Assembly (NCBI GenBank): GCA_017391185.1
Contig: JAFOZN010000117.1
Location: 1-26,489, forward strand
Direction of reading: 5' to 3'
DNA length: 26,489 nt
DNA from: Alistipes sp.
GTDB lineage: Bacteria; Bacteroidota; Bacteroidia; Bacteroidales; Rikenellaceae
In this document: one piece after another, positions 1 through 19,324 of the stretch
Layout of the letters: the number at the start of each line of letters is the position of its first letter
Numbering within the stretch: position 1 is the first letter of the stretch
Position numbers and translations under genes: made by a program
The notes under the pieces: generated by a model
Told to the model about the DNA's origin: nothing
The model's input: the letters and a program-made list of their open reading frames with translations, nothing else
The model's database searches: none

Positions 1-644
1 GGGACAATTATCGAACTAAATTTGGCTATACGCTGTATGCCACCGAAGATGATGAGTAGGGTAGCGATGGTGATTGCGATTCCGAACTCCATGTGACCTA
101 TCCCGAAGGCGTTCTCCACCGCCTCGCAGATTGTGTTGCTCTGTACGGTATTGAAAGCAAAGCCAAAAGTAAGGATTGTCAGCACGCTCATCAAAATGGC
201 CATAGGCTTATTCCTCAGCCCATACATTATATAATATGCTGGGCCTCCGATGTAGGAGTCTGCCGAATGGCGTTTGTAGAGCTGAGCCAACGTACTCTCG
301 ATAAAGGCGTTGGCTGCACCTATGAGGGCTATCACCCACATCCAAAAAACAGCACCCGGACCACCAATAGTAATGGCAGTAGCCACACCCGCCAGATTTC
401 CCGTACCGACACGGCTGGCAAGCGATACGGCAAAGGCCTGGAATGGAGAGATATGACTCTTGCTCGCTCCTCGCTCTCTCTCGGCAGAGTTGGTTAGCTG
501 TCGAAACATCTCTTGGAGCATAGTAAACTGCACAAATCGGCTACGAATGGTGAAATATAGGGCGCAACCAATCAGTGAGACTATCATCACATAGCCCCAA
601 AGGATGTTGTTTGTCGAGTCGATTAGGTGTTGCAGTTCTTCCAT
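1..644 (-). CDS. Sodium:alanine symporter family protein (AGCS), C-terminus cut by window edge
   Basis: Read on the minus strand from an ATG at 644-642; 214 codons are visible and the frame runs off the left edge, so roughly the last half of a usual 450-550 residue protein is missing. The family imports alanine or glycine with Na+ (or H+) across the inner membrane. Family hallmarks are visible: ISPFQAFAVSLASRVGTGN at residues 65-83 and GGPGAVFWMWVIALIGAANA at 94-113, followed by FIESTLAQLYK. Hydrophobic segments lie at about 14-33, 86-110, 147-166 and 186-202. It starts 5 bases after the stop of the hydrogenase-like small-subunit gene, so it is probably the last or a late gene of the same transcript. 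There is no clear Shine-Dalgarno site. Family assignment is firm; the substrate is inferred. Confidence 0.9.
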   Translation of the reverse strand, partial: MEELQHLIDSTNNILWGYVMIVSLIGCALYFTIRSRFVQFTMLQEMFRQLTNSAERERGASKSHISPFQAFAVSLASRVGTGNLAGVATAITIGGPGAVFWMWVIALIGAANAFIESTLAQLYKRHSADSYIGGPAYYIMYGLRNKPMAILMSVLTILTFGFAFNTVQSNTICEAVENAFGIGHMEFGIAITIATLLIIFGGIQRIAKFSSIIV

Positions 645-649
645 ATTAT

Positions 650-1411
650 TTATCTCTTTTTAAGTGAGATGAGATTCATTACCGAGTCGATGAATGTCAT
701 TGGATGTGTAGGAGTACCCGGTAACCACAGATCTACATGGTATTTCTCCAAAAATGAGCGATCAACGGCTTTACTCTGGGCGTATAGTCCACCTGAAATG
801 GCCTCCGATCCACACACAATTACGATCTTGGGATCAGGTATTGAGTTGAAGCATATATCCAATGGCTCAGCCATATTTTGCGATATAGGGCCTGTGATTA
901 CCACTCCATCTGCATGACGTGGTGAAGCTACAAACTCTACGCCATAGCGGCCGAAATCGAAGTTTACGTTACCTGTTGCGTTGAGCTCCATCTCCACCGA
1001 AGCATCGCCCGCAGCCGACACCTGACGAAGTTTAAGCGCGCGACCAAAGAGCGTAGGGATCTCCTTGCGCACATTCTCTGGGTGGAAGTCAATCGCTTTA
1101 GTCTCTGGTGTTACGATAAGAGCCTGACGCGATGTAGAGCCGATCTTGTAATCGTTGGTAAAACGTATGTTACGTGGTGCGCGCAGAGCACACTCGCCAC
1201 AAAATAGACAACGTCCCAAGTCGAGCGTAAATGGAGCTGTGGTGATGGCCTGCGTTGGGCATAGTTTTGCCGCAGCCTCCACATCGCTCATATCTGAGCT
1301 TGGAGTAAGCTCTGCTCTTCCGCGAAACTCTTCTGTGAGAGTCACATTATTCAGATCGGGTATATATTGCCATCCGTGGCTCTTTAATACCTTTATTTTT
1401 GGCAGAATCAT
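650..1411 (-). CDS. Ferredoxin/NuoB-like small-subunit fusion of a hydrogenase-related membrane complex, proximal-cluster cysteines lost
   Basis: 253 residues. It joins what are two proteins in hydrogenase-4 (HyfH and HyfI). Residues about 1-110 form a ferredoxin domain in which C51 (CPTQAI) plus C68, C71 and C74 (CxxCxxC) can hold one [4Fe-4S] cluster. The other cluster's ligands are gone (A78 takes one position). Residues about 118-250 match the NuoB/HycG small subunit, seen in ASPRHADGVVITGPISQNMA and in PDPKIVIVCGSEAISGGLY. All four ligands of the proximal cluster are replaced: D136 and V139 at the CxxC, E203 in the GxCA motif and T233 in the PGCP motif. It is expected to sit on the cytoplasmic face with the large subunit and the HyfC-like membrane subunit. 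It follows the large-subunit gene by 21 bases. The fold assignment is good; the activity is unknown. Confidence 0.88.
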   Translation of the reverse strand: MILPKIKVLKSHGWQYIPDLNNVTLTEEFRGRAELTPSSDMSDVEAAAKLCPTQAITTAPFTLDLGRCLFCGECALRAPRNIRFTNDYKIGSTSRQALIVTPETKAIDFHPENVRKEIPTLFGRALKLRQVSAAGDASVEMELNATGNVNFDFGRYGVEFVASPRHADGVVITGPISQNMAEPLDICFNSIPDPKIVIVCGSEAISGGLYAQSKAVDRSFLEKYHVDLWLPGTPTHPMTFIDSVMNLISLKKR

Positions 1412-1432
1412 ATTCTTCTTAATCTAAGTCTG

Positions 1433-2944
1433 TTATAAATCGTGTCCGCAGTATGAGAGGTTGAAACTCTTGTTGTTGATAGGGAAGTCTGAGATGCCCT
1501 CTCCTCTAACGGCAAGAGCCAAGGCAAGCCAATTGTGCAGGCTCGGATCTTTGATCTTATAGGTCTCGATCTTACCCTCTTTGTCGGTGATTGCCACATG
1601 ACAAATCTCGCCACGCCATCCCTCCATCAAGCCTATTGAGATTGACTCCGAAGAGAGTGCTAAGTCATAATCTGGTCTGCAACTCTCGGCGGGGGTATAT
1701 CCAGCGAGAATCTGCTCGATATAATCTGCCGACTGCAACACCTCACGACAGCGAACCGTCAAGCGAGACATCACATCGCCATGACGCTTGGTGATACTCT
1801 CATGTTGGATTTGTGAGCCATATACCAGATATGGGTGCGATGAGCGAATATCTCTCTTTACGCCACTTGCGCGTGCCGCCATTCCTACTCCGCCGATGCG
1901 TTGCATCTCCTGCTTGGGGACAATTCCACACTGCTCATATCGGGCAAGCAATGTGGCAGAGGTCTTGATATCCTCTCTAACCTCATTGTAACGGCGCTTT
2001 ATCTCGGCTACATTCTGGCGAATCATATCGACTTTTTCCTTGGTCAAAGGTTTGTTTGTGCCGCTTGGGCGAATCAAACCCTTACCGAAGCGATTTCCGC
2101 ACCACGCCTGAGTGGTGTTGATGGTCATCGTACGCAGAGCTTCGCAAGCTACCTGCCCCAACTGATAACCCACATCGGTACACAACGCTCCCGTATCCGC
2201 AATATGCATTGCCATGCGCTCCAACTCCAATGCAACTACGCGCTCTTGCTCCAGATTCTTGTCGGCCATTTTGCCAGAGAGTTTCTCCATCGCCATTGCG
2301 TAGGCTACGCCATGCGATACGGCGCTATCTCCCGCAATAGATTCGGCAAGAAGCATCTGACGTAGGCGGTTGTCGGTAGATGAGAATTCGTTCTCCACAC
2401 CGCGATGCTGATAACCGAGTGCAATCTCAAGGTGGAGTACACTCTCTCCGTTACATATAAAACGGAATGCTCCAGGCTCAATGATACCAGCATGGATAGG
2501 TCCTACATTCACCTCATGCAGAGACTCTCCCTCGATGGTATAGAATGGATAGTTGTCGATTGTAGAGTTGCGATTGCGGCGATTGTAGGAAAAACGCAGA
2601 GGCTTAGCCCAAGGCATAGAATCGAACTCTACATTATATAGTTCGGCAATCTCTCTCTCGAATGGGTGCAGGGCAGGGTGCAGAGCCGTAAGTGAAGGCA
2701 GAGCAATATCCTCGTAATACTCCATCGAGAAGGACGATATCATAATTTTAGATGTTGCATCATCCAGAAGAATCAGATAAAAGCGCAATCGCTCCTCTTC
2801 GGGGCGAGCGAAGTAGTGAGCAACGTGGTATTGCTCCTGCTTTAGACGCTCCTTTAAATCCTCATATAGCGCAGCATAATCCACCTCAGGGATTTGGCTC
2901 AGTTTGATGGCCTGGCTACGGTTATCTGTAATGTAGTATATCAT
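1433..2944 (-). CDS. NuoC/large-subunit fusion (HyfG/HycE-like) lacking the NiFe ligands; Ehr-type large subunit
   Basis: 503 residues. The first ~115 are NuoC-like (HPFEREIAELYNVEF at 93-107). The rest is the NuoD/hydrogenase large-subunit fold, with HRGVENEF at 180-187 and ELERMAMHIADTGAL at 240-254. A true [NiFe] hydrogenase has RxCGxC near this N-terminal region and DPCxxC at the C-terminus. Here the first reads SIAGDS (A204 and S207 replace the cysteines) and the second reads NLSYCG (N495, L496, S497, G500), so no NiFe site can form. C499 is out of register. Loss of these ligands defines the Ehr complexes related to energy-converting hydrogenases. No hydrogenase maturation gene or C-terminal processing peptide is present, which fits. 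The gene starts 3 bases after the HyfF-like gene. It is not a normal NADH dehydrogenase subunit because its partners are of HyfB/E/F type. Confidence 0.9.
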   Translation of the reverse strand: MIYYITDNRSQAIKLSQIPEVDYAALYEDLKERLKQEQYHVAHYFARPEEERLRFYLILLDDATSKIMISSFSMEYYEDIALPSLTALHPALHPFEREIAELYNVEFDSMPWAKPLRFSYNRRNRNSTIDNYPFYTIEGESLHEVNVGPIHAGIIEPGAFRFICNGESVLHLEIALGYQHRGVENEFSSTDNRLRQMLLAESIAGDSAVSHGVAYAMAMEKLSGKMADKNLEQERVVALELERMAMHIADTGALCTDVGYQLGQVACEALRTMTINTTQAWCGNRFGKGLIRPSGTNKPLTKEKVDMIRQNVAEIKRRYNEVREDIKTSATLLARYEQCGIVPKQEMQRIGGVGMAARASGVKRDIRSSHPYLVYGSQIQHESITKRHGDVMSRLTVRCREVLQSADYIEQILAGYTPAESCRPDYDLALSSESISIGLMEGWRGEICHVAITDKEGKIETYKIKDPSLHNWLALALAVRGEGISDFPINNKSFNLSYCGHDL

Positions 2945-2947
2945 GAT

Positions 2948-4351
2948 TTAGAACATTGCGATTTTATCAATAATATCTCTCAATATGGCAGGTTGCCAGA
3001 ATCCGATGATGAGTGCCAAAATCAAAAGTGAAAGGGCACTGTAAGAGAGTCGGCGGTTGATATTCGAGAGGTGTAACTCATCCTGATTGGATTGGTAGCA
3101 GAGCTTAATCATGCGGTAGCAGATTGTAAATATCACGATGCAGATGAGCAATACCATGATGGCAACTACCCACCAACCCTTCAAGGTCAAAGCCTCCATC
3201 ATAATCATCAACTCCGAAATAAAGAGTGGCGAAGGAGGGAATGCCAACACCGCAATCATGCCGAGCAATAGGCCGATGGCACCTACCTTGTTGATGTTGA
3301 TATAATCTCCGATACGGTTGATACGGTAACCGTTGTAGATCTGACGCACGATAGCAATTTGTAAAAAGAGACTACTCTTAATAAAGGTGTGACACACCAC
3401 ATGGAATAATGCTGCCCATACGCCTAATCCACCGATACCCAAGCCTATGGCCACGATACCCATATTCTCTACCGTAGAGTAAGAGAGGAATCTCTTGTAG
3501 TTGTTGGTACGGCGCAGGAACAGAGCTCCGACAACCAGACTTAGGAGTCCAATGATGAGCATTACGTTCTTCACCCAAGGGAAGACTTCGGTTGTAGAGA
3601 AGAGTTTGTAGATACGGAAGATCGCCAAGAAACCCGCATTCACCAGACCCGTAGATATCATCGCAGAAGCTGGAGCTGGAGCTGCAAAGTTGGCATCTAC
3701 ACCAATGGTATAGAGTGGGAAAATCTCCATCTTACAGCTATAACCTGTCAGAATTAGCAGAAATGCAGCCTTGAGATATAGCGGATTACCGTTGATGATT
3801 AGATGTTGCAGGTCTGCGTAGCTGAGCGAGTTGTTAGATGCTGTAGCGCACAAGAGCAAAATACCCAAATATGCGATGGCAATACCTGTTGAGCATACGA
3901 AGAGATACTTCCAAGTAGCCTCCAAGGTAGCCTTCGAGTGGCGGTGGTAGATGATACCTGCTGCGCACAAAGTTGTGGTCTCCAACAAAATCCACGTCAC
4001 GGCAATGTTGTTGGCAAAATATACTCCCGTGATGGCGGCTGTGAGTAGCATCAACAGAGCGAAGTAGTTCCTATAGTTGACTATCGTATCATCTTTGAGA
4101 TACTCTTCGGAGTGTACAAAGACGTAGCACGAAACCACAAACAACAATACATAGAAGAGTGAACCCACCTGATCGAATGTGAAGAACTCTCCCGATGTAG
4201 AGAGATACGCCCCACCGAAGAGTAGATTTGCGCCGAATATGGCGTGCGAGAGCAGATACACAAGGTATAGCGAGTGTACTATCTTGCGGCTTCGGGCGAA
4301 GAATGTGGCTACGGCCAACAATATCCATATTACGAAGAAGATATATATCAT
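2948..4351 (-). CDS. HyfF-like Mrp-antiporter-type membrane subunit
   Basis: 467 residues, almost entirely hydrophobic with about 13-14 membrane spans, of the NuoL/M/N antiporter-like family as in HyfF of hydrogenase-4. The pumping residues expected in this fold can be placed: E124 (LLETTTLCAA), K207 in GYSCKMEIFPLY, and a lysine within the HVVCHTFIKSSLFL helix. The usual TWLPDAH that follows the central lysine is replaced by TIGVDAN (about 215-221), so the subunit is divergent at a normally conserved half-channel. It lies between the HyfE-like gene (3-base gap) and the large subunit (3-base gap), which implies one operon and translational coupling. Its likely role is an ion-translocating module in the inner membrane; whether H+ or Na+ is unknown. 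Confidence 0.87.
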   Translation of the reverse strand: MIYIFFVIWILLAVATFFARSRKIVHSLYLVYLLSHAIFGANLLFGGAYLSTSGEFFTFDQVGSLFYVLLFVVSCYVFVHSEEYLKDDTIVNYRNYFALLMLLTAAITGVYFANNIAVTWILLETTTLCAAGIIYHRHSKATLEATWKYLFVCSTGIAIAYLGILLLCATASNNSLSYADLQHLIINGNPLYLKAAFLLILTGYSCKMEIFPLYTIGVDANFAAPAPASAMISTGLVNAGFLAIFRIYKLFSTTEVFPWVKNVMLIIGLLSLVVGALFLRRTNNYKRFLSYSTVENMGIVAIGLGIGGLGVWAALFHVVCHTFIKSSLFLQIAIVRQIYNGYRINRIGDYININKVGAIGLLLGMIAVLAFPPSPLFISELMIMMEALTLKGWWVVAIMVLLICIVIFTICYRMIKLCYQSNQDELHLSNINRRLSYSALSLLILALIIGFWQPAILRDIIDKIAMF

Positions 4352-4354
4352 AGC

Positions 4355-4984
4355 TTAATCTTTTACATGGGTTAGTGAATCGCTATCATCGGTGTGAATC
4401 TTGTCATCGACCTTGGTCATGAACAGACCAAGCATCAATACAGACATCAAGATATCGAGCATGATAGCTGCGTTGATCAACATCGGCATCTCAACTCCGA
4501 TAGCCATCGAGAAGAGGAATACTCCATTCTCAATAACAAGGAATCCTACCATATGGGTAAAGATGCGTGAGCGCAATACAATCAGGATCAATCCTGAGAG
4601 CAAGGCATAAATGGCAACTCCGAAGAAGACCATATTGATCGAAGAGTCTGCGATATAGTAGGTCATGATGGCACTTATGACAAGCGCAACCACCGAAAGC
4701 ATCAGCGAATTAAACTGAGATGTGCCTGATGTGCGGATGCGGTTGATACGAGTCTTGTTTATCACTCGTGTCAAAATCGCAGGGACAATCAGAGCCTTGA
4801 AGATTAAGGTCTCGGTCACGATAAATGACAACTCCACCCAATCCAGAGAGTGCAGACGCAGGAGTGCAATACCCAAAAGAATCCAACCTTGGAAGGCGAT
4901 TATCGAGGCATAGTTGCGGAATCGCTCAACGATAGAGATGTAGATGAGCGAGATGATATAAAGTATGATTAATGAGAGTAACAT
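4355..4984 (-). CDS. HyfE-like membrane subunit of hydrogenase-related complex
   Basis: 209 residues with about six membrane spans and a short charged, Asp-rich tail (DDKIHTDDSDS near 191-201). The size and layout match HyfE, a NuoK/MrpC-like subunit found in hydrogenase-4 and Ehr-type complexes but absent from complex I, where NuoK is about 100 residues. The stretch GFLVIENGVFLFSMAIGVEM is typical, with a Glu buried in a membrane helix that probably takes part in ion transfer. It starts 9 bases after the HyfC-like gene ends and ends 3 bases before the HyfF-like gene starts. This gene helps exclude an ordinary nuo operon. No special regulation is seen; it should be expressed with the rest of the operon. 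Confidence 0.85.
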   Translation of the reverse strand: MLLSLIILYIISLIYISIVERFRNYASIIAFQGWILLGIALLRLHSLDWVELSFIVTETLIFKALIVPAILTRVINKTRINRIRTSGTSQFNSLMLSVVALVISAIMTYYIADSSINMVFFGVAIYALLSGLILIVLRSRIFTHMVGFLVIENGVFLFSMAIGVEMPMLINAAIMLDILMSVLMLGLFMTKVDDKIHTDDSDSLTHVKD

Positions 4985-4993
4985 GATACCTCC

Positions 4994-5908
4994 TTATATA
5001 TTAATGTCCAACTTGAGCAGATAGCCGATAAAGAATATCAGAGCTGCCAAAGCCGAGATTGTTACGATAAATGTGGTGTTACGAACAAGCTTGTTGCGTC
5101 CTTGTGTAGATTCCACTATGCCGACAGAGAGTCCTGTGAGCAGGATCGCCAACGGAGTAGCAAACCACCAATTGAAACAACATGTTGCGGCGATAGCGTT
5201 GGCTGCAATCATCGAGAAGCAAGCGCATTTGATCCAGCTTGCGATGTGTATCAAAGCCATATCTATTCCGCAATAATCCAGACACATAACCTCGTGGATC
5301 ATCGTAAGCTCAAGGTGTGTGCGTGGATCATCCACAGGTACACGCCCCGACTCTACGAATGTAATTTTGAGAAAGAGGAATGCCGTAAGCAACATCACAA
5401 TCGTCAGATGCAGATTGAACGACTGCCGATGCTCAAATATCTCGGCAAACGATGTATATCCACAGAATAGTGCAAGCGTAGCAAAGCCTATCATCAAGGC
5501 TGGCTCTATCAACGCGCCATACAACGCTTCGCGAGCAGCACCCATACCCTCGAATGAACTACCAGTGTCCATAGCGGCAAAGATGATAATGATGCGAGCC
5601 AGGGCCAATGTATATGCGAAGCAGATAACATCTCCCTCAAACGATATGAGAGGATAGAGATCAGCCACGGGGATAAACAACATGGCTACGATAGCAGCAC
5701 CTAAATAGATTGCAGGTGCTATACGGAAAAGAGCTGTGGTAGTGGTAGAATATACCGTACTCTTTCTTAGGAGCAGATTAACATTTCGCAGATGCTGCGT
5801 AAAGGGCATACCCTGACGACCTGCCAACACAGCGCGTGTACGATTGATCACTCCCGGTATGGCAAGTGCGGTGATGATGATGAGAAGTGTATTAAGTACA
5901 ATTGCCAT
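4994..5908 (-). CDS. HyfC/NuoH-like membrane anchor subunit
   Basis: 304 residues with about eight membrane spans. This is the NuoH/HyfC-type subunit that links the soluble arm to the membrane arm. Family marks are GSSFEGMGAAREALYGALIE at 116-135 and ESGRVPVDDPRTHLELTMIH at 186-205, whose acidic residues form the charged chamber that in complex I couples redox chemistry to ion transfer. These acidic residues are all kept, although the redox centres of the neighbouring soluble subunits are lost. It starts 2 bases after the HyfB-like gene ends. The N-terminus (MAIVLNTLLIIITALAIPGV) is a normal first membrane helix, and the next loop has RTRAVLAGRQGMP, the equivalent of the RxxARxQxRxGP motif. 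Confidence 0.9.
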   Translation of the reverse strand: MAIVLNTLLIIITALAIPGVINRTRAVLAGRQGMPFTQHLRNVNLLLRKSTVYSTTTTALFRIAPAIYLGAAIVAMLFIPVADLYPLISFEGDVICFAYTLALARIIIIFAAMDTGSSFEGMGAAREALYGALIEPALMIGFATLALFCGYTSFAEIFEHRQSFNLHLTIVMLLTAFLFLKITFVESGRVPVDDPRTHLELTMIHEVMCLDYCGIDMALIHIASWIKCACFSMIAANAIAATCCFNWWFATPLAILLTGLSVGIVESTQGRNKLVRNTTFIVTISALAALIFFIGYLLKLDINI

Positions 5909-5910
5909 GA

Positions 5911-7899
5911 TTATATCAGATTAAAGAGTGAAACGACAAATATAACCACCAAGAATATCAAGGCGTAGGCGATATAGATATTTATCTTACCCGTACGCAG
6001 GCTCATTACTCGTTTGTTGATAATGTGCAGAAGCTCTACCCACCATTCGGCAAACAAACGATCGATTTTATCCTTGTGACGTATGTTGTAGTTGTGCGTA
6101 GATGGGAAGATCTCGCTCTTGCCTACGGTGCGTCCCTCGATGGTGTTCTGAGTAAACGAAGTGGCAATAGATTCCAAACCCTCGGCAAAAGACTCTCCCG
6201 TATATTGCATGCGGATATTAGGTGAGGTGAAACCACAACCCCAAGTAGGACCCTGAGCAATGGTACGAGAGCGTTGAGCACGACTCTTAATGATATAAAT
6301 CAGAGCAATGATGATGATCAATAGCCATGCTGTGAGGGATAATTTGGTCAACGTTGGTGTGAGATATTGACTTACTACAGGCTCGGTGTAGGGTGTAAAT
6401 TGTTGAGCCACACCCTCAACTATACGGATAGCAAATTGAGGGAATAGTCCAATCAAGATTATACCAGTTGCGGGTATTGCCATAGCGGCGATTCTGATGT
6501 TGTCCACCTCTTGAGACTCAGCTACATGGTGATCACGTGGCGAGCCGAGGAAGATGGTGCTGTATAACTTGCTAAATGCCAATACAGCGATACCTCCAAT
6601 GAGAGCCAAAGCGAGGAGTCCACTTGCTGCATAGATAGTGTTTACATTGTCTCGTACGCTATCCAACATTCCCAAGTAGATCAAAAACTCGCCAACAAAG
6701 CCGTTGAGTGGTGGCAACGCACAGATTGCCAATGTGGCGATAAAGAACAATATAGCCGTTACGGGCATATGCTTGGCTACGCCACCAAACTTATCGAGCA
6801 GTGTGGTATGCATCTGAGAGTAGATGTTGCCTGCTCCGAAGAAAAGCAATGACTTAAATAGCGAGTGATTTACCGTATGGAGCAATGCTCCGCAAAGGGC
6901 GATGGTGGCAACCAAATGATTCCCTGAGGCTTGTCCCAAAGTGGCGATACCGAGGCCGATGAAGATTACGCCTACATTCTCGATACTCGAATATGCAAGT
7001 AGTCTTTTGGCATCGTTCTGTACAGCTGCCAAGATAACACCCCATAGTCCTGTGATAATACCTACCGAGAGGATTATCAGACCAATAGTGTGCAACTCTG
7101 TAGAATCGGCAATATACCACATAACACGCATAATACCATATACACCAGTCTTGATCATTACGCCCGACATGATAGCCGAAACGTGTGATGGTGCAGCAGG
7201 GTGAGCTTCAGGCAACCAAACGTGCATAGGGAAAAGACCAGCCTTCATGCCAAAACCTAAAAGGAAGAGTATGAAGATAGGTATGGTCTTACCGTTTGAG
7301 AAGCAGATGGCAAGGTCTGAAAATGCTCCTGTCGAAGTATTTGCATAGATTGTTGCAAAACCAGCCACGAGGAATATAAATCCTATATGCATCATAATCA
7401 AGTAAGCCACAGCAGCACGTAATACCTCAGCTCGCTCGGCATCAAATAGGATGAGTAGGAATGAGGCGATGGTCATCAACTCCCATGCAAAGAGAAATGA
7501 AAAACCTCCGCTTGAGATTACCACCAACATCATCGATAGTATCAGCACCACAAGCGAAGTGTAGTGCAGAGAGATGTGTGCCGAAGACTTTTTCTTGAGA
7601 TATTGCTCCAAATAACCTTTCGAATAGAGTACGGTAGCAACTCCTGCAACTCCTATGATTAGCAGAAAGATGGCCGAAAGTGGATCAATACTCAAAGACT
7701 CTTGCCCGAAAATTGGGCTCATGAACTCCATGAGAACCAGACTCTTGCCCGAAGTGAGCACTCCAATGGCTGGCACGATTGCCGCCAAAGCCAACGTCAC
7801 CGCAGTAGCCAAAGCCACCCACACTTTACTGCGCAGAGGGCTGAGGAATAGTGCTACGATGAGCAACGTAAGAGTCGGAAGTAGATAAAGATAAAACAT
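5911..7899 (-). CDS. HyfB-like Mrp-antiporter-type membrane subunit (first gene of Ehr-type operon)
   Basis: 662 residues. The N-terminal ~520 form the NuoL/M/N antiporter fold: E140 in FLFAWELM, K219 in GFGMKAGLFPMHVWLPEAH, K250, then HTVNHSLFKSLLFFGAG at 341-357 with H341, H345 and K349. All ion-path residues are present. The C-terminal ~140 residues carry the HyfB/HycC-type extension with the WGCGF signature, MQYTGESFAE, and a last membrane helix near residues 638-660. This extension separates it from NuoL, NuoM and NuoN. It is the first gene of a run of six closely spaced genes (gaps of 2 to 21 bases), with no HyfA- or HyfD-like gene in the run. The start ATG at 7899-7897 is the only reasonable one. 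A possible promoter lies just upstream. Confidence 0.9.
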   Translation of the reverse strand: MFYLYLLPTLTLLIVALFLSPLRSKVWVALATAVTLALAAIVPAIGVLTSGKSLVLMEFMSPIFGQESLSIDPLSAIFLLIIGVAGVATVLYSKGYLEQYLKKKSSAHISLHYTSLVVLILSMMLVVISSGGFSFLFAWELMTIASFLLILFDAERAEVLRAAVAYLIMMHIGFIFLVAGFATIYANTSTGAFSDLAICFSNGKTIPIFILFLLGFGMKAGLFPMHVWLPEAHPAAPSHVSAIMSGVMIKTGVYGIMRVMWYIADSTELHTIGLIILSVGIITGLWGVILAAVQNDAKRLLAYSSIENVGVIFIGLGIATLGQASGNHLVATIALCGALLHTVNHSLFKSLLFFGAGNIYSQMHTTLLDKFGGVAKHMPVTAILFFIATLAICALPPLNGFVGEFLIYLGMLDSVRDNVNTIYAASGLLALALIGGIAVLAFSKLYSTIFLGSPRDHHVAESQEVDNIRIAAMAIPATGIILIGLFPQFAIRIVEGVAQQFTPYTEPVVSQYLTPTLTKLSLTAWLLIIIIALIYIIKSRAQRSRTIAQGPTWGCGFTSPNIRMQYTGESFAEGLESIATSFTQNTIEGRTVGKSEIFPSTHNYNIRHKDKIDRLFAEWWVELLHIINKRVMSLRTGKINIYIAYALIFLVVIFVVSLFNLI

Positions 7900-8693: not shown

Positions 8694-8725
8694 CAAAGAT
8701 ATTAATTATAAGTTAAGTAATGAAA
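8694..8725 (-). promoter_or_regulatory. Promoter of rsmE sharing a palindrome with the divergent promoter
   Basis: Because 8686-8701 is a perfect 16-bp palindrome, the minus strand carries the same TATCTTTG box at 8701-8694. A weak -33 (TTTC read on the minus strand, 8725-8722) sits about 20 bases upstream. Transcription would start near 8687, about 19 bases before the rsmE ATG. Confidence 0.55.
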
Positions 8726-10984
8726 CGCTTTTTCCATTTATTCGCATTTGCGATGTTAATTATGACACTAAATTCGTGTAATAATTCGGCTTCAATAGCC
8801 GATAACCCTTTTTTTGAGCCTGTGTGGGATACTCCTTACGGTGCACCTCCATTTGAGCGAATCAAGTTTGAGCACTACAAACCCGCCTTTGAGCAGGGTA
8901 TGTCTTTGCACAACGAGGAGATTGCTGCAATCGTAGATTGTAAGGATGAGCCTACCTTCGAGAATACCATCTTGGCATTGGATAATGCCGGTAAGATGCT
9001 CTCTAAGGTGAGTACAGTATTCGGTATGTTGGAGTCGGCTGTGACCGATGAAAATATGCAGGATCTCTCTTCAGAGATGATGCCACGTATGGCTGCTCAT
9101 AGCGATGCTATCGTGATGAATGATAAGCTTTTTGCTCGTATCAAGAAGGTCTATGATAATCGTGATGCTGCAGGCTTGGATGAACTTCAGCAGCGTTTGA
9201 CCGAGAAGATCTATGATCGTTTCGTGCGTTCAGGAGCTTTGCTCTCTGAGCAGGATAAGGCTAAGCTCAAGCAGATCAACGAGCAGCTCTCGTCTTTGAG
9301 CGTAAAGTTTGGTCGCAATATCTTGGCTGAGACCAATGCCTTCCAGCTTGTTTTGGACCATACTCAGATAACAGGTATCCCTCAGTCGGTGTTGGATGCG
9401 GCTCAGGAGCAGTCAAAGGAGGCTGGTAAGGGTGCAGATAAATATCTCTTTACTCTGCATAAGCCAAGTATGTTGCCACTTTTGACCTATGCGAAGGATC
9501 GTGGAGTGCGTGAGCAGATTTATAAAGCGTACCTCAAGCGCGGAGATAATGGCAATGAGAATGACAATAAAGCGGTTATCGCCGATATGGTTTCGCTTCG
9601 TTATGAGAAGGCGAAGTTGTTGGGCTATGACTCATATTCTCATTATGTTACCTCTAAGCAGATGGCTGGCTCACCTGAGGCTGCATATGAGCTTCTTGAG
9701 GGTATTTTCGATGCTGCCAACGAAAAGGCTAAAGATGAGTTGGCTCGCATGACAACTCTCTTTAAGCAGGATAATGGTTCAGATGCCAAGTTTGAGTCAT
9801 GGGATTGGTGGTACTATGCCGAGAAGGTACGTAACAGAGATTATAAGATGGAGGAGGAGCAGGTACGTCAGTTCCTTTCGTTGGATAATGTCAAGGGTGG
9901 AATTTTCTTCCTCGCCAATCGTTTGTATGGCATTACTTTCCGACCAATCAAGGCTCCTTTGTATCATGAGGATTGTGAGGCCTATGAGGTAATCGATGCC
10001 AATGATACACCTCTGGGTATGCTCTATTTTGATTTCCATCCACGAGCAAGCAAGAGTGGCGGTGCGTGGTGTGGTACGTATGTAGATCAGAGTTATGAGG
10101 ATGGCAAGCGTGTTGCTCCAGTTGTGAGCATTGTTTGCAACTTTACACCTCCTACAGGTGATACTCCAGCTCTGCTTACTATTGATGAGACCGAGACTTT
10201 GTTCCATGAGTTTGGACACGCTTTGCACAATCTCTTTGCCGATGTGAAATACTCAGGCTTAGGTGGTGTTGAGGGTGATTTCGTGGAGCTTCCATCACAG
10301 ATTATGGAGAATTGGGCCTTCTCTACCGAGATGCTCAAACAGTATGCCGTACACTATTCGAGAGGTAATGTGATGCCCGATGATATGATTCGCTCTATCC
10401 AGCGTTGCTCAAAGTTCAATGAGGGCTTCAACACCACTGAGCTCTCTGCTGCGGCACTTTCAGATTTGGATATCCACTCTATCAAGAGTGCCGAGAAGAT
10501 TGATGTTGCCGATTTCGAGCGTAAAGCGTTGAGCCAGAAACGAGGCCTTATCTCTCAGATTGAGCCACGTTATCGCTATACATACTTCAGCCATATCTTC
10601 AACGGAGGTTACTCTTCGGGTTACTACTTCTATTTGTGGGCTGAGGTGTTGGATAAGGATGCTTATCAGGCCTTTGTGGAGAGTGGCGACATCTTCAATC
10701 AGGAGGTTGCTAAGCGATTCCGCGATGAGGTACTCTCTCGCGGTGGAACTCGTGACGGTATGGATATGTACCGTTCATTTAGAGGTGCCGATCCCGACAA
10801 GAATGCCATGTTGGTGGCTCGTGGTTTGATTCAGGAGAGTGAGTTGGAGCCACAGCAGAGTGAGCGAGTAGTAGCCAAGGTGGATACTCGCGAGCAGGCT
10901 CGTCAGCGTGCCGAGCGTTCACGCCGTGAGCGAGAGGCTGCAAAGGCTAAAGCAGAGACAGAGACTACTGCTCAGGCGGAGTAA
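8720..10984 (+). CDS. M3 family zinc metallopeptidase lipoprotein (peptidyl-dipeptidase/oligopeptidase type) with charged C-terminal tail
   Basis: 754 residues. The N-terminal signal ends in a lipobox, L17-N-S-C20, so this is a lipoprotein, presumably in the periplasm or on the outer membrane. The rest matches peptidyl-dipeptidase Dcp/oligopeptidase A, which cut short peptides. The HEFGH zinc motif is at 496-500 (H496, E497, H500), with the third ligand E523 in FVELPSQIMENW. Substrate-binding tyrosines lie in HIFNGGYSSGYYFYLWAEVL. The loop between the zinc motif and E523 is two residues shorter than in the next gene. The last ~40 residues are a low-complexity tail rich in Arg, Glu, Lys and Ala that its neighbour lacks. 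It is the first gene of a three-gene operon, and 34 bases separate it from a paralog. Confidence 0.95.
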   Translation: MKRFFHLFAFAMLIMTLNSCNNSASIADNPFFEPVWDTPYGAPPFERIKFEHYKPAFEQGMSLHNEEIAAIVDCKDEPTFENTILALDNAGKMLSKVSTVFGMLESAVTDENMQDLSSEMMPRMAAHSDAIVMNDKLFARIKKVYDNRDAAGLDELQQRLTEKIYDRFVRSGALLSEQDKAKLKQINEQLSSLSVKFGRNILAETNAFQLVLDHTQITGIPQSVLDAAQEQSKEAGKGADKYLFTLHKPSMLPLLTYAKDRGVREQIYKAYLKRGDNGNENDNKAVIADMVSLRYEKAKLLGYDSYSHYVTSKQMAGSPEAAYELLEGIFDAANEKAKDELARMTTLFKQDNGSDAKFESWDWWYYAEKVRNRDYKMEEEQVRQFLSLDNVKGGIFFLANRLYGITFRPIKAPLYHEDCEAYEVIDANDTPLGMLYFDFHPRASKSGGAWCGTYVDQSYEDGKRVAPVVSIVCNFTPPTGDTPALLTIDETETLFHEFGHALHNLFADVKYSGLGGVEGDFVELPSQIMENWAFSTEMLKQYAVHYSRGNVMPDDMIRSIQRCSKFNEGFNTTELSAAALSDLDIHSIKSAEKIDVADFERKALSQKRGLISQIEPRYRYTYFSHIFNGGYSSGYYFYLWAEVLDKDAYQAFVESGDIFNQEVAKRFRDEVLSRGGTRDGMDMYRSFRGADPDKNAMLVARGLIQESELEPQQSERVVAKVDTREQARQRAERSRREREAAKAKAETETTAQAE

Positions 10985-11018
10985 GGGTTGTTGAATGATA
11001 ATTTAATTAGATAACACG

Positions 11019-13154
11019 ATGAAAAAATTGTTTTTGATGATGACACTAAGTGCATTGCTCTCTTCATGTGGATCGGATCAGATGCCACAGGTTGTTTTGC
11101 CAGAGATAGATACCTCTAATCCATTGTTGGCTCAGTGGGATACTCCATATGCCACTCCGCCTTTCGATAAGATTAAGATCTCGGATTATGAGCCAGCTTT
11201 CGAGACTGCCATTGCCGTATCGCGTGCCGAGATTGACGCTATTGTAAATAATCCTGCCAAGCCAACTTTCAAGAATACGATCTTGGCTATGGAGCGTCAG
11301 GGCGAGTTGCTTGGTCGTATCAGTGGTATTTTCTATAACTTGCGTGAGGCAGATACATCGGATGAGATGGATGCTATCGCTATGCGTATTCAGCCTAAGA
11401 TGACAGAGTTGAGTAACGATATCTCGCTCAACCCAGAGCTTTTTGCTCGTGTGAAGGCTGTATATGAGGGCTCTCGCCGTGGTCTGTCTGATGTGGATAT
11501 CAAGCTTTTGGAGGAGACATATAAGGGATTTGCTCGTTCGGGTGCTGAACTCTCGGATGAGAAGAAGGAGGAGTATCGCAAGTATAGCTCTTCTTTGGCC
11601 TCTTCTACATTGCTCTTTGGTCAGAATTCGCTCTCGGCAACAAATGCTTTTGCTATCAATATCACCGATGCAAAGAAGGTGGCTGAGTTGCCTGATTTTG
11701 TGAAGGAGGGTATGGCTGCCGATGCCAAGGCTCGTGGTGAGAAGGGTTGGACCGTTACTCTTAAAGCACCAAGCTACATCCCATTTATGACCTACTCTTC
11801 GCAGCGTGATCTGAAAGAGAAGTTGTATCGTGCATATAACTCTCGAGCTTTGGGTGGTGAGTTTGATAATACCAATGTAATCAAGAGCATCATCTCTGAT
11901 CGTCTTGCCATCGCTTCGCTTTTGGGTTATAAGACCTACGCTGACTATGTTTTGGAGGATAAGATGGCGGAGAGTTCGGAGAATGTAAATAACTTCCTCT
12001 CTGAGCTTCGCGATCAGACCTTGGAGTATGGTCGTAAGGACTATGCTATGATCAACGAGTTTGCTAAGCAAAACGGTCTCAAGGGAGATGTAATGCCTTG
12101 GGATTGGGCATATTATACCGAGAAGTATAAGAGCGAGAAGTATGCTATCAACGATGAGCAGGTGAAGCCATATCTGAAGCTCGACAATGTTATCAAGGGT
12201 GTATTCCTCTTGGCAGAGAAGCTCTATGGCCTTTCGTTCGTGCCAAATAAGGATATTCAGGTATATCACCCCGATGTGACAGCCTATGAGGTTTACGACA
12301 AGGATGTGAACGGTAAGAGGGAGCTTTTGTCGATTCTATATCTCGATTTCTTCCCACGCGAGTCTAAGCGTTCGGGTGCGTGGATGACCGAATTCCGTGG
12401 TGCAAAGGTTATTGACGGCGAGGAGATTCGTCCTTTGGTGTCGCTTGTGATGAACTTCACCAAGCCTACCGAGACTATGCCTTCATTGCTTACGTTCGAT
12501 GAGTTTGAGACCTTCCTCCATGAGTTTGGTCACGCTCTGCACGGAATGCTTGCCAAGGGTGAGTATGAGTCTATGAATGGTACTGCAGTTTATCGCGATT
12601 TCGTGGAGCTCCCATCACAGATTATGGAGAATTGGGCTACCGAGAAGGAGTATCTCGATATGTGGGCCGTACACTATAAGACAGGTGAGAAGATTCCTGC
12701 TGAGCTTATCGAGAAGATTGTGGCGGCGAAGAACTACCTTGCAGCATATCTCAATCTGCGTCAGCTCTCATTCGGTATCTCTGATATGAAGTGGCACATG
12801 CTCACAGATAAGAAGCAGATCGAGTCTTTGGATATTGAGTCATTTGAGCGTGAGGCTGTGACCTCTGTTCAGATTACCCCATTGGTCGAGGGTACATCTA
12901 TGGCTCCAGCCTTTACTCATATCTTCTCAGGTGGTTATGCAGCTGGTTACTACGGTTATAAGTGGGCTGAGGTGTTGGCTGCCGATGCTTATTCACTCTT
13001 CGAGGAGAAGGGTATCTTCGATCAGCAGACTGCATCTAAGTTCCGTCACCTTTTGGAGCAGGGCGGTCAGCGTCATCCTATGGATATCTACGTAGAGTTC
13101 CGAGGCCATAAGCCAGAGACTAAGGCTTTGATCGAGTCTATGGGTTTGAAGTAA
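11019..13154 (+). CDS. M3 family zinc metallopeptidase lipoprotein, paralog of the preceding gene
   Basis: 711 residues. The signal peptide ends in the lipobox L14-S-S-C17. The catalytic domain has HEFGH at 501-505, the third zinc ligand E530 in RDFVELPSQIMENW (canonical 29-residue spacing from H501), and HIFSGGYAAGYYGYKWAEVL near the C-terminus, which supplies the substrate tyrosines. This gene and its neighbour share the mature N-terminus (WDTPY, then A/TPPF) and the whole domain order, so they arose by tandem duplication. This copy ends at the usual family C-terminus (GHKPETKALIESMGLK). Its role is probably degradation of oligopeptides in the periplasm, perhaps with a specificity different from the first copy. 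It is 26 bases upstream of the GH43-like gene. Confidence 0.95.
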   Translation: MKKLFLMMTLSALLSSCGSDQMPQVVLPEIDTSNPLLAQWDTPYATPPFDKIKISDYEPAFETAIAVSRAEIDAIVNNPAKPTFKNTILAMERQGELLGRISGIFYNLREADTSDEMDAIAMRIQPKMTELSNDISLNPELFARVKAVYEGSRRGLSDVDIKLLEETYKGFARSGAELSDEKKEEYRKYSSSLASSTLLFGQNSLSATNAFAINITDAKKVAELPDFVKEGMAADAKARGEKGWTVTLKAPSYIPFMTYSSQRDLKEKLYRAYNSRALGGEFDNTNVIKSIISDRLAIASLLGYKTYADYVLEDKMAESSENVNNFLSELRDQTLEYGRKDYAMINEFAKQNGLKGDVMPWDWAYYTEKYKSEKYAINDEQVKPYLKLDNVIKGVFLLAEKLYGLSFVPNKDIQVYHPDVTAYEVYDKDVNGKRELLSILYLDFFPRESKRSGAWMTEFRGAKVIDGEEIRPLVSLVMNFTKPTETMPSLLTFDEFETFLHEFGHALHGMLAKGEYESMNGTAVYRDFVELPSQIMENWATEKEYLDMWAVHYKTGEKIPAELIEKIVAAKNYLAAYLNLRQLSFGISDMKWHMLTDKKQIESLDIESFEREAVTSVQITPLVEGTSMAPAFTHIFSGGYAAGYYGYKWAEVLAADAYSLFEEKGIFDQQTASKFRHLLEQGGQRHPMDIYVEFRGHKPETKALIESMGLK

Positions 13155-16025: not shown

Positions 16026-18212
16026 ATGAGACAGACCAAAAAGAGAGAGTCTCGCCGCGTGAAGAGCGAGCAGAAGCATCGAGATACTAAGAGTATCCGC
16101 TCGGCATTTATCATAAATATGTTCCGTGAGTTCCCTGATAGGGTGTTTACGCTCAAGCATCTTGTTTCGGCTTCGGGTGGTAACTCTCGTGAGGGGCGTT
16201 ATATGGTCAAAGATATTCTTGAGGATTTGATAGCTCAAGAGGTGGTTATTGCGGCAGGTAGAGATAAATACCAACTCTCATTTGCCCAACTACCACATTA
16301 TGAGGGTGTGGTGGAGATTCTCAATTCGGGTGCGGCGTATGTCAAAGTCGAGGAGCTCGAACGTGAGATATATGTCAATCCGCGAGCTACGGCGTGCGCT
16401 TTGGATGGTGATAGGGTGGAGGTTGTACTCCAGCGAGAACCTCAGCGCGAGGGTGATAATCCCGAAGGTGCCATTGTGAGCATCATTAAGCGTAGCGGTA
16501 AGCAATATGTAGGTGTGGCGGAGCTTAGTCGTTCGGCTATATTTGTTAGGCCAGACAGCCGTAAATTGCAGATGGATATCTTCTTCTCTCGCAAGGAGTA
16601 TCCAGGGGTGAAGGATGGCGATAAGGTTGTTTTCCGCATTACCGATTGGCGCGAGGGGGATCGCTCTCCAAGGGGAGTTATTGTCGATGTGCTTGGTCGT
16701 GTGGGTGAAAATGATACCGAGATGCACGCTATTTTGGCAGAGTACGATTTGCCATATAAGTTTGAGCAAGAGGTAGAGGATGCTGCAAATGCTATCAGCG
16801 CCGAGATTACCCCTCAGGATTATGCCGAGCGTAGAGATTTCCGCGATGTTACAACCTTTACAATCGATCCTGCCGATGCCAAGGATTTCGATGATGCACT
16901 CTCTATCCGTAAGGTGGAGGATGGCTTGTGGGAGGTCGGTGTGCATATTGCCGATGTTACACATTATGTGCGTCCGGGCTCTATCGTAGAGAGTGAGGCG
17001 CAGGAGCGAGGTACTTCGGTCTATTTGGTGGATCGTACCGTGCCGATGCTTCCTGAGAGGCTGTGTAACGAACTATGCTCGTTGCGTCCCAATGAGGAGA
17101 AGTTGGCTTTTTCGGCAGTCTTTGTTCTGAATGAAAATGCCGATGTGCTGGATGAATGGTTTGGTCGTACGGTTATCTACTCGGATCGCCGCTTTACCTA
17201 TGCCGAGGCTCAGGCTCGTATTGAGACAGGTGTTGGCGATTTTTCTGAGGAGATAAACGTATTAAATGACTTGGCTCAGAAGATGCGCCGCAATCGTTTC
17301 AAGAATGGTGCGGTGAGCTTCGAGAGGGCAGAGTTTAAGTTTATACTCGATGAAAAGGGTAAACCTCTGGGAGTATATACCAAGGAACAGAAGGAGTCCA
17401 ATCAGCTCATCGAGGAGTTTATGCTTTTGGCCAATCGTAAGGTTGCCGAGTGGTGTACCTATAAGGAGATAAAGGGCAAGAAGGTTCAACGTCCGATGGT
17501 CTATCGTGTGCATGATGAGCCTAATGAGGAGAAGCTCACCCGTTTCAGAGATTTTGTCTTGAAGTTTGGTTATCAATTCAAGGCTACCAAGGGTCGCTCG
17601 GTGGCTAAGGCTATCAATAAGTTGGTCACTGAGGTTAAGGGCCGCCCAGAGGAGAATGCCGTGCAGGCTTTGGCGGTGCGTAGTATGGCCAAGGCTCTCT
17701 ATACTACGGATAACGTGGGACATTACGGTTTGGCATTTAAATACTATACCCACTTTACTTCGCCTATCCGCCGCTATCCCGATATGATGGTGCATAGATT
17801 ATTGGCGAATTATCTTGCTGATGGTAAAAATGGCGATAAGCGAGCTTTGGAGGCGCAGTGTGTCTATGCCTCTGAGCGTGAGATTGTGGCTTCGGAAGCA
17901 GAACGTGCATCCATCAAATATAAGATGGTGGAGTTCATGCAGGATAAAATCGGACAGATGTTCAAGGGTCATGTCTCAGGCATGAGCGAGTGGGGTATAT
18001 ATGTTGAGTTGAACGACACTCATATCGAAGGTATGGCATTCCTGAGAGATATCGAGGGCGATTTCTATATGTATGATGAGGCTCGCTTTGAGGTTGTTGG
18101 TCGTGCTTCAGGCAGACGTATAGCCTTTGGAGATGAGGTTTGGGTACGTGTCAAGGGTGTGGATATGCGCCGCCGTACGATAGATTTTGAATTGATAGTA
18201 AGTGCAAAGTAA
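16026..18212 (+). CDS. rnr: Ribonuclease R (3'-5' exoribonuclease, RNB family)
   Basis: 728 residues. The basic N-terminus (RQTKKRESRRVKSEQKHR) and a winged-helix-like part are followed by cold-shock domains (about 80-230). The RNB catalytic domain has the metal-binding block DPADAKDFDDALS at 281-293 (D281, D287, D289, D290), and the active-site helix TSPIRRYPDMMVHRLL has R582/R583. A C-terminal S1 domain (GHVSGMSEWGIYVELNDTHI) closes the protein; there is no long Lys-rich tail. The enzyme degrades structured RNA from the 3' end and takes part in rRNA and mRNA turnover. Its stop codon overlaps the start of mqnC in TAATG, so the two are translationally coupled. A 57-base AT-rich gap precedes it. 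Confidence 0.96.
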   Translation: MRQTKKRESRRVKSEQKHRDTKSIRSAFIINMFREFPDRVFTLKHLVSASGGNSREGRYMVKDILEDLIAQEVVIAAGRDKYQLSFAQLPHYEGVVEILNSGAAYVKVEELEREIYVNPRATACALDGDRVEVVLQREPQREGDNPEGAIVSIIKRSGKQYVGVAELSRSAIFVRPDSRKLQMDIFFSRKEYPGVKDGDKVVFRITDWREGDRSPRGVIVDVLGRVGENDTEMHAILAEYDLPYKFEQEVEDAANAISAEITPQDYAERRDFRDVTTFTIDPADAKDFDDALSIRKVEDGLWEVGVHIADVTHYVRPGSIVESEAQERGTSVYLVDRTVPMLPERLCNELCSLRPNEEKLAFSAVFVLNENADVLDEWFGRTVIYSDRRFTYAEAQARIETGVGDFSEEINVLNDLAQKMRRNRFKNGAVSFERAEFKFILDEKGKPLGVYTKEQKESNQLIEEFMLLANRKVAEWCTYKEIKGKKVQRPMVYRVHDEPNEEKLTRFRDFVLKFGYQFKATKGRSVAKAINKLVTEVKGRPEENAVQALAVRSMAKALYTTDNVGHYGLAFKYYTHFTSPIRRYPDMMVHRLLANYLADGKNGDKRALEAQCVYASEREIVASEAERASIKYKMVEFMQDKIGQMFKGHVSGMSEWGIYVELNDTHIEGMAFLRDIEGDFYMYDEARFEVVGRASGRRIAFGDEVWVRVKGVDMRRRTIDFELIVSAK

Positions 18213-19324
18213 TGATACGAGCAGAAGAGGTTTTCGCTAAGGCTAAGGATCGAGCTACGCTTAGCCGCCAGGAGGCTTATTGGCTGTGGGATGAGGCTCC
18301 GTTGGAGCGTCTGGCTGCGGTGGCTGATGAGGTTAGGCGAGGTGTGGTAGCAGATTCTAATGTGGTAACGTGGCAGATTGATCGCAATGTGAATATAACC
18401 AATGTTTGTGTTTCGGGATGTAAATTCTGCAACTTTCATTGCAAACCACATCAGACTCAGAAGGCATTTATCACCTCGATAGAGGAGTATCGCGAAAAGA
18501 TTGATAGGATGTTGGAGTTGGGGGGCGATCAGCTTTTGTTGCAGGGCGGTATGCATCCCCGATTGGGCGTAGAGTTTTATGAAGATCTGTTTAGTGAGCT
18601 AAAAAGACTCTATCCTAATGTGCGCCTACACGCTTTGGGACCTCCAGAAGTAGCTCATATTGCTAAGGTTAGCGGGATTACTTCACGTCAATGTTTAGAG
18701 CGTTTGGTGGCAGCAGGTCTGGATTCGTTGCCAGGTGCGGGAGCCGAGATTCTCGATCCTCAGGTGAGAAAAACTATCTCGCCTGCCAAACCGAGTGTCG
18801 AGGAGTGGCTTGAGGTGATGCATGAGGCTCATGAGATGAATCTTGCTACTTCGGCGACTATGATGTATGGCCATATTGAGACACCTCATCAGAGGGTGGA
18901 TCATCTGCTTAGAATACGTGATTTGCAGGATCGTTGTCCTGAGGGTAATTACGGCTTTTTGGCATTTATCCCATGGATCTTCCGTTCTACGGGTACAAGG
19001 CTTGAGGCGGAGGGCGTAAAGTCTAATTTCTCGGCGTTGGAGTATATCAGAGTTATTGCGGTTAGCCGATTGATACTTAATAATATACGCAATATCCAAG
19101 CCTCATGGCTTACGGTGGGTAAAGCGACAGCACAACTTGCTCTGCATAGCGGTGCCAATGACATGGGTTCGATTATGATCGAGGAGAATGTCGTTTCGAG
19201 TGCGGGAGCGCATAATAAGTTCGATGCCGAGGGTATTCAGCGAGCTATCCGAGAGGCTGGTTTTACCCCTCAGCTTCGTGACCAATTGTATCGCCCAAGA
19301 GTTTATGAAGTAGGCGCGAAATAA
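18212..19324 (+). CDS. mqnC: Cyclic dehypoxanthinyl futalosine synthase (radical SAM, menaquinone biosynthesis)
   Basis: 370 residues. The radical-SAM cluster motif CxxxCxxC is C66, C70, C73 (NVCVSGCKFCNF). The enzyme cyclises dehypoxanthinyl futalosine to the cyclic form in the futalosine route to menaquinone. MqnC-type marks are LLQGGMHPRLGVEFYEDLF, LDSLPGAGAEIL, TSATMMYGHIETPHQRVDHL, NYGFLAFIPWIF, NIQASWLTVG and GANDMGSIMIEENVVSSAG, with the C-terminal AGFTPQLRDQLYR. The paralogs MqnE and CofH share the fold but not this C-terminus. The start overlaps the rnr stop by one base (TAATG). No other mqn gene is in the window, and a strong terminator follows. Menaquinone is the membrane quinone used for anaerobic respiration. 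Confidence 0.9.
   Translation: MIRAEEVFAKAKDRATLSRQEAYWLWDEAPLERLAAVADEVRRGVVADSNVVTWQIDRNVNITNVCVSGCKFCNFHCKPHQTQKAFITSIEEYREKIDRMLELGGDQLLLQGGMHPRLGVEFYEDLFSELKRLYPNVRLHALGPPEVAHIAKVSGITSRQCLERLVAAGLDSLPGAGAEILDPQVRKTISPAKPSVEEWLEVMHEAHEMNLATSATMMYGHIETPHQRVDHLLRIRDLQDRCPEGNYGFLAFIPWIFRSTGTRLEAEGVKSNFSALEYIRVIAVSRLILNNIRNIQASWLTVGKATAQLALHSGANDMGSIMIEENVVSSAGAHNKFDAEGIQRAIREAGFTPQLRDQLYRPRVYEVGAK

Follow-up and report, generated by a model that had tools for sequence, protein, structure and literature searches.

It has long been asked how complex I-like enzymes use redox chemistry in their head to drive proton paths far away, and a locus of the gut bacterium Alistipes sp. (Rikenellaceae, Bacteroidales) raises the question in another form: what could a hydrogenase-4-like complex do once both the hydrogen-activating site and the proximal [4Fe-4S] ligands of its head have been replaced? 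The window analyzed here is the whole 26,489-nt stretch of contig JAFOZN010000117.1 (assembly GCA_017391185.1), and its positions 650-7899 hold, on the minus strand, six contiguous open reading frames (ORFs) with intergenic gaps of 2 to 21 nt. The ORF coordinates and the Pfam and NCBIfam matches bore out an earlier model annotation made from the letters alone (the sequence-only reading), which had assigned the genes as counterparts of HyfB, HyfC, HyfE, HyfF, HyfG, and a fused HyfH-HyfI. In the tables shown, the NCBIfam matches of all six proteins scored under the family cut-offs, which places them at some distance from the families named; the HyfE counterpart had no Pfam match, and its assignment comes from NCBIfam NF008556 alone, under its cut-off.

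We addressed the former active site by aligning the large subunit with HycE and HyfG of Escherichia coli MG1655 (loci L079 and L080). A204/S207 and S497/G500 aligned exactly with both CxxC pairs of these references, and the codons were checked, which confirmed the replacement of the four NiFe-binding cysteines that had been claimed from the sequence. No CxxC pair was present at these sites in any of 134 aligned rows, comprising the window and 133 loci (some genomes present under two names; 30 short loci of genomes also represented by longer stretches, and loci at ≤200 bits, namely complex I-type NuoD and one fragment, excluded from the count). In particular, 133 of the 134 rows had no cysteine at any of the four sites, and L179 had a single one. 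Among the best 120 of 8000 scored homologues, 119 carried ASSG at these positions and one carried ATSG, and G205, D206, S497, and D502 were invariant across 115 deduplicated rows. Sequencing error, which had been named as a possible refutation, was excluded because the relatives carry the same states at all four sites. The draft genome (1.95 Mb, 305 contigs, 84.8% complete) gave no match to a NiFe large subunit, an FeFe hydrogenase, or the HypD maturation family, although the absence of HypD is not final because of this incompleteness. These results support the conclusion, as judged from the alignments, that the complex is not a hydrogenase. Energy-converting hydrogenase-related (Ehr) complexes are recognized by the absence of the conserved Ni- and Fe-coordinating residues (PMC6349859, PMC10284858, PMC7304191, PMC4378227). 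The absence of CxxC pairs therefore makes the complex Ehr-like, in agreement with the resemblance noted earlier; this class assignment is based on the residue criterion (PMC6349859) and on operon content rather than on placement in a tree with named Ehr sequences.

The small subunit showed a second loss, which the sequence-only reading had missed together with the loss of one cluster of the ferredoxin domain. When aligned with HycG, HyfI, and MbhJ, D136, V139, E203, and T233 occupy the four ligand sites of the proximal [4Fe-4S] cluster, and the alignment thus shows a predicted small subunit that lacks the ligands of the counterpart of complex I cluster N2. We scored 125 small-subunit rows (nine of the 134 rows had no small subunit on their stretch) and designated those with CCCC at the proximal sites C-type and those with any other state, including the window, D-type. 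All four cysteines were present in 15 rows; the remaining 110 had an acid (D or E) at both 136 and 203 and one of N, T, A, or S at 233, where two of them show a gap instead, and no row had two or three proximal cysteines. Site 139 was Cys in 48 of the 110 D-type rows and otherwise variable, so that 62 rows, including the window, kept none of the four cysteines. A second sample, consisting of the homologues listed for a distant D-type query, had D at 136 in 120/120 and Cys at 233 in 0/120; D was also found at 203 in all 18 of these homologues shown. The ferredoxin domain carried a parallel difference; its two motifs are named here N6a-like and N6b-like after the clusters of complex I. By pattern, the N6a-like first CxxCxxC motif was found in 12 of 15 C-type and 0 of 110 D-type rows (seven apparent D-type matches, actually the second motif, were removed), and the N6b-like cysteines (CP plus CxxCxxC) were present in 115/115 deduplicated rows and in 120/120 database homologues listed. 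These patterns show that the ferredoxin domain retains the predicted ligands of one of its two clusters. Thus, the view of an ordinary Ehr complex whose catalytic centre is not known was correct as to the Ehr-like character but incomplete, since in this lineage the electron path to that centre is gone as well. Ehr complexes are already known, and the loss of the proximal cluster in them is the new point; our search of the open literature, which did not cover Marreiros et al. 2013, turned up no Ehr complex described as devoid of it.

We then compared C-type and D-type at each of 2351 alignment columns drawn from all six subunits, with 13-15 C-type and 83-100 D-type rows by subunit (deduplicated rows, as also used for the residue tallies and the quick tree below). 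Sites 136, 203, and 233 were the only columns with zero overlap between the two types, and the next-lowest columns of the small subunit included the N6a ligand sites 40, 44, and 47, which played no part in defining the groups. By these alignments, the remainder of the machine hardly changes. In the head, E156 was kept in 100/100 D-type and 14/15 C-type rows, H211 in 96/100 and 13/15, D502 in 100/100 and 15/15, and small-subunit R165 in 100/100 and 15/15, with R165 and H166 together in 115/115. E156, H211, and D502 align with Mbh Glu21, His75, and Asp379, and R165 with MbhJ Arg64; the match of D502 to Asp379 was obtained by extending the alignment register past its printed end. In Mbh, Glu21L, His75L, Asp379L, and Arg64J belong to a proposed proton path and loop network that drives the membrane arm (PMC11228991). 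In the membrane arm, E140, K219, H341, H345, and K349 of HyfB were kept in 82 or 83 of 83 D-type and in 14/14 C-type rows, and both types kept E124, K207, and K325 of HyfF and the acids E186, D193, E200, and E206 of HyfC, so that the retention of the ion-path residues and acidic loops proposed from the sequence held across both types. The ratio of nonsynonymous to synonymous substitution (dN/dS) was 0.026-0.098 in 21 of 24 comparisons of the window with four relatives (the other three were not finite), values that are rough because synonymous sites were near saturation, and these comparisons show the six-gene complex to be under apparent purifying selection. For the two head subunits, whose alignments were shallow at 24 and 22 rows, the AlphaFold2 models reached a mean predicted local distance difference test score of 56.5 and 66.5, and the usable part of the large-subunit model found its best PDB matches in HycE of the formate hydrogenlyase and in complex I and Mbh chains.

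The complex is common, as estimated from sampled genomes that were tallied by eye with the window's own genome included (not census figures): orthologues were found in 132 of 250 genomes of its own family, some as fragments, in 68 of 294 of its own order, and in 12 of 296 spread over the phylum. The closest relatives with names were Alistipes/Rikenellaceae metagenome-assembled genomes, many from ruminant gut. Of 142 stretches, 82 D-type and 14 C-type ones, together with two that had no scored small subunit, gave the order B C E F G HI; the other 44 were short, or automatic assignment gave fewer or other positions. C-type rows were basal in trees rooted on E. coli, and therefore CCCC is likely ancestral. 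The C/D state required two changes on a quick tree (columns 202 and 232 masked) and three on a careful tree of 62 rows, 45 of them D-type (columns 203 and 233 masked); FastTree trees of single subunits required three changes for the large subunit and one for the small subunit. A single D-type clade was disfavoured (approximately unbiased test, p-AU 0.034). Thus, as they stand, the trees do not tell one switch from several parallel ones or from gene exchange. As separate observations, genome G528 holds two large-subunit copies (L109 and L178), with no small subunit found on the stretch of the second copy, and a D-type small subunit labelled unclassified Flavobacterium (P0209) would, if the label is right, lie outside the Bacteroidales.

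The alignments show vacated NiFe, proximal, and N6a-like sites, acids at two of the former ligand sites, and a predicted ion path and loops that have been kept. To account for this combination, we favour, with a confidence that stays just short of even, an Ehr-type complex that has become uncoupled from electron transfer and now translocates protons, or protons and another cation. We further propose, with a little more reserve, that throughout this lineage of complex I relatives a pump once driven by redox chemistry became an ion transporter that needs no electrons: two conserved carboxylates would have taken the place of the cluster near the active site, and a switch by protonation or cation binding that of the redox switch, with the loops and the membrane arm working as before. 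In the Mbh and MBS complexes, the proximal cluster adjoins three loops that connect the head with the membrane arm (PMC7684303). In the proposed mechanism the head would still operate the membrane arm, without electrons. The carboxylates at 136 and 203 should be spatial neighbours, since both stand where ligands of one cubane were; side by side at the top of the chamber, D136 and D/E203 could inherit the charge-switching role of the cluster. Protonation, cation binding, or the binding of a ligand or metabolite at 136/203 would supply the charge change, which may shift the HyfC loop and, in the large subunit, the loop that joins beta strands 1 and 2, and this shift could open or drive the proton paths of HyfB and HyfF. 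An ion gradient already in place, such as the Na+ gradient set up by Nqr/Rnf, would supply the energy instead of a redox reaction, and the remaining N6b-like cluster might be structural or serve as a redox sensor. The sequence-only reading is supported as to the kept ion path, but its "ion pump" may go too far: a complex that lacks an electron chain may be a gated conductor or an antiporter instead of a redox pump. For the headless NDH-I of Prevotella, a similar antiporter role has been raised as a possibility (PMC6560451).

Several observations weigh against this explanation. The invariance of the N6b-like cluster suggests some redox or sensing role, and no Pfam or NCBIfam match to an Mrp-type Na+-module subunit was found among the six proteins, which also sets the complex apart from Pyrococcus MBS/Mbh. 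The separation of the two types at the proximal sites is partly by construction, because those four sites defined the groups, and overlap scores below 0.1 were found at two columns in HyfE and two in HyfF as well. The models of isolated subunits were too weak to resolve the pocket. Finally, L174, a C-type row with all four proximal cysteines, sits among D-type rows in the joint trees, a placement that may reflect gene exchange, regain, or tree error; because it falls inside the D-type rows, a single clean switch from C-type to D-type is not shown.

The invariant N6b-like cysteines are also the best support for the main rival, a one-cluster redox enzyme, in which ferredoxin or another donor would reduce the remaining cluster, a substrate or some other cofactor would sit in the vacated proximal cavity within tunnelling range, and redox chemistry would still drive the pump. 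The conserved pocket residues of the large subunit are consistent with such an enzyme, and MBS illustrates that catalysis in this superfamily can shift onto a [4Fe-4S] cluster (PMC7684303). We nevertheless regard this explanation as unlikely, if by no means negligible. The usual entry motif, N6a, is gone in all 110 D-type rows, and the former NiFe pocket is presumably far from the remaining cluster, judging by the distance in complex I. The quinone residues H38 and Y87 of complex I correspond in the alignment to I155 and G205 here, and therefore no complex I-like quinone site is expected. Among the 59 D-type rows outside the own family, no neighbour cluster was common to more than three loci, except one of approximately 678 aa, mostly within the operon, which was taken as hyfB.

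The acids might also be a structural plug that does no more than make up for the negative charge that went with the cluster and keep the fold together; the head would then serve assembly or stability, and the membrane arm would work alone as an Mrp-like antiporter. The invariant R165 and H166 beside the old cluster site may need such a counter-charge, and the antiporter idea for Prevotella (PMC6560451) points in the same direction; we give this explanation little credence, since the invariant E156, D206, K492, S497, and D502 near the former active site seem more than a plug needs. It is improbable that a proximal iron-sulfur cluster is still assembled with Asp, Asn, or other ligands. Single Asp ligands occur in some [4Fe-4S] clusters, and the 48 D-type rows that keep Cys at 139 could be counted in favour of this arrangement, but 62 rows, the window among them, have none of the four cysteines, cysteines at 200 and 205 are inconsistent (36/100 and 23/100 D-type rows), and a cluster with three non-Cys ligands is not known to have a precedent. 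Assembly error or gene decay, which a draft genome of 305 contigs might suggest, was excluded, as 109 further D-type rows share the states, the six genes are open, and dN/dS is far below 1.

Like Ehr complexes, which are reported from Geobacter, Nitrospira, CPR (candidate phyla radiation), and Riflemargulisbacteria (PMC6349859, PMC10284858, PMC7304191, PMC4378227, PMC7894505), it has a group 4-like large subunit without NiFe cysteines, and its Mrp/Nuo-like membrane subunits share an operon with the large and small subunits. A cytoplasmic redox reaction coupled to charge translocation is suspected in print for Ehr complexes; the sequence of this operon shows no full electron path. The loss of the proximal ligands and of the N6a-like motif distinguishes the window and 109 other D-type rows from their 15 C-type relatives, the set with which this contrast was drawn. 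The subunits are homologous to those of E. coli Hyf/Hyc (hydrogenase 4 and formate hydrogenlyase) and follow the same relative order B, C, E, F, G, H, I, but the operon has no genes for HyfA, HyfD, HyfJ, or HyfR, and HyfH and HyfI are fused. Compared with group 4 [NiFe] hydrogenases in general, both the two CxxC pairs and the four-cysteine proximal [4Fe-4S] site are absent, and HypD had no match in the 84.8% complete genome. Pyrococcus MBS/Mbh shares the large-subunit homology, the loop residues, and the counterpart of Mbh Glu21; the three-cysteine proximal cluster of MBS, however, does the chemistry (PMC7684303), and the window lacks those ligands. NuoB/C/D/H/I/L/N-like parts are shared with respiratory complex I, but the operon has no NADH-module gene, and the N2 ligands and quinone H38/Y87 are absent. 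As in Mrp antiporters, the antiporter-like subunits have a conserved Glu/Lys/His path, but in this operon hydrogenase-like head genes are present. The homologues thus form a natural series from a full hydrogenase (Hyf/Hyc) through a complex without NiFe (C-type) to one without the proximal cluster (D-type). If the D-type complex moves ions, the coupling loops would be drivable without electrons, which would separate the electrical from the mechanical parts of such machines. Where given, source names were mostly NADH-quinone oxidoreductase or Ni,Fe-hydrogenase III subunits, and such database names could mislead metabolic models.

The coordinates of the operon and its adjoining gene are given in table 1. 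Scans for promoters and terminators yielded nothing convincing. A HyfF-HyfG fusion, suggested in several same-genus genomes by an open frame of 970-980 aa over the large subunit, was rejected because the extra part in L144, L181, and L182 is out-of-frame sequence.

Table 1. Features of the six-gene operon and its downstream neighbour, in positions of the window
Feature	Position	Strand	Length and remarks
HyfB/NuoL-like antiporter subunit	5911..7899	-	662 aa
HyfB ion-path residues	E140 7480-7482, K219 7243-7245, H341 6877-6879, H345 6865-6867, K349 6853-6855	-	
HyfC/NuoH-like membrane anchor	4994..5908	-	304 aa; acidic loop E186, R189, D193, D194, E200, E206 kept
HyfE-like membrane subunit	4355..4984	-	209 aa; NF008556
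HyfF-like antiporter subunit	2948..4351	-	467 aa; E124, K207, H321, K325 kept
HyfG-like large subunit (30 kDa + 49 kDa parts)	1433..2944	-	503 aa; without NiFe cysteines
Former CxxC no. 1, A204-G-D-S207	2324..2335	-	alignment, codons checked
Former CxxC no. 2, S497-Y-C-G500	1445..1456	-	alignment, codons checked
E156 (kept), aligned with the Mbh proton shuttle Glu21	2477..2479	-	
HyfH-HyfI fusion (ferredoxin domain + NuoB-like small subunit)	650..1411	-	253 aa
Sole [4Fe-4S] motif kept, N6b-like: C51 (LCP) + C68, C71, C74 (CxxCxxC)	1190..1261	-	
D136 at proximal-cluster cysteine 1	1004..1006	-	
V139 at proximal-cluster cysteine 2	995-997	-	
E203 at proximal-cluster cysteine 3	803..805	-	
T233 at proximal-cluster cysteine 4	713..715	-	
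Na+:alanine symporter, downstream neighbour, cut by window end	3..644	-	starts 5 nt past the operon's last stop

In the genome, the large subunit was the sole match to the complex I 49-kDa family, with no further match in the draft. Two matches to the RnfD/NqrB family were found, which suggests that Rnf and Nqr may perform ferredoxin and NADH oxidation in this bacterium. By Pfam, rsmE lies upstream of the operon in the window and the Na+:alanine symporter gene downstream; by similarity to these genes, rsmE was upstream in 29 own-family loci and the symporter downstream in 11, counts that include some genomes under two names. Small membrane proteins were also observed downstream, near the operon, in 15 own-family loci (L048, L032, L184, L133, L134, and others), and we take them, from their general look rather than a family search, to resemble chromate-transporter-type proteins. 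Among C-type loci, a gene with a helix-turn-helix (HTH) and a phosphotransferase system (PTS) EIIA domain adjoins the operon in 8 of 15 (L116, L117, L118, L119, L120, L114, L115, and L047; Pfam was run on L117 only), and no D-type neighbour clusters with it; this neighbour hints at regulation resembling that of ion transporters. A SulP (sulfate-permease-family) gene lies near four C-type operons (L113, L119, L120, and L122; Pfam on L113 and L120). Elsewhere in the window, positions 18212-19324 encode a radical SAM protein with a CofH/MqnC C-terminal region, which hints at menaquinone synthesis by the futalosine route, and positions 8720-13154 hold tandem M3-family peptidase genes, similar ones being found upstream in 30 own-family loci.

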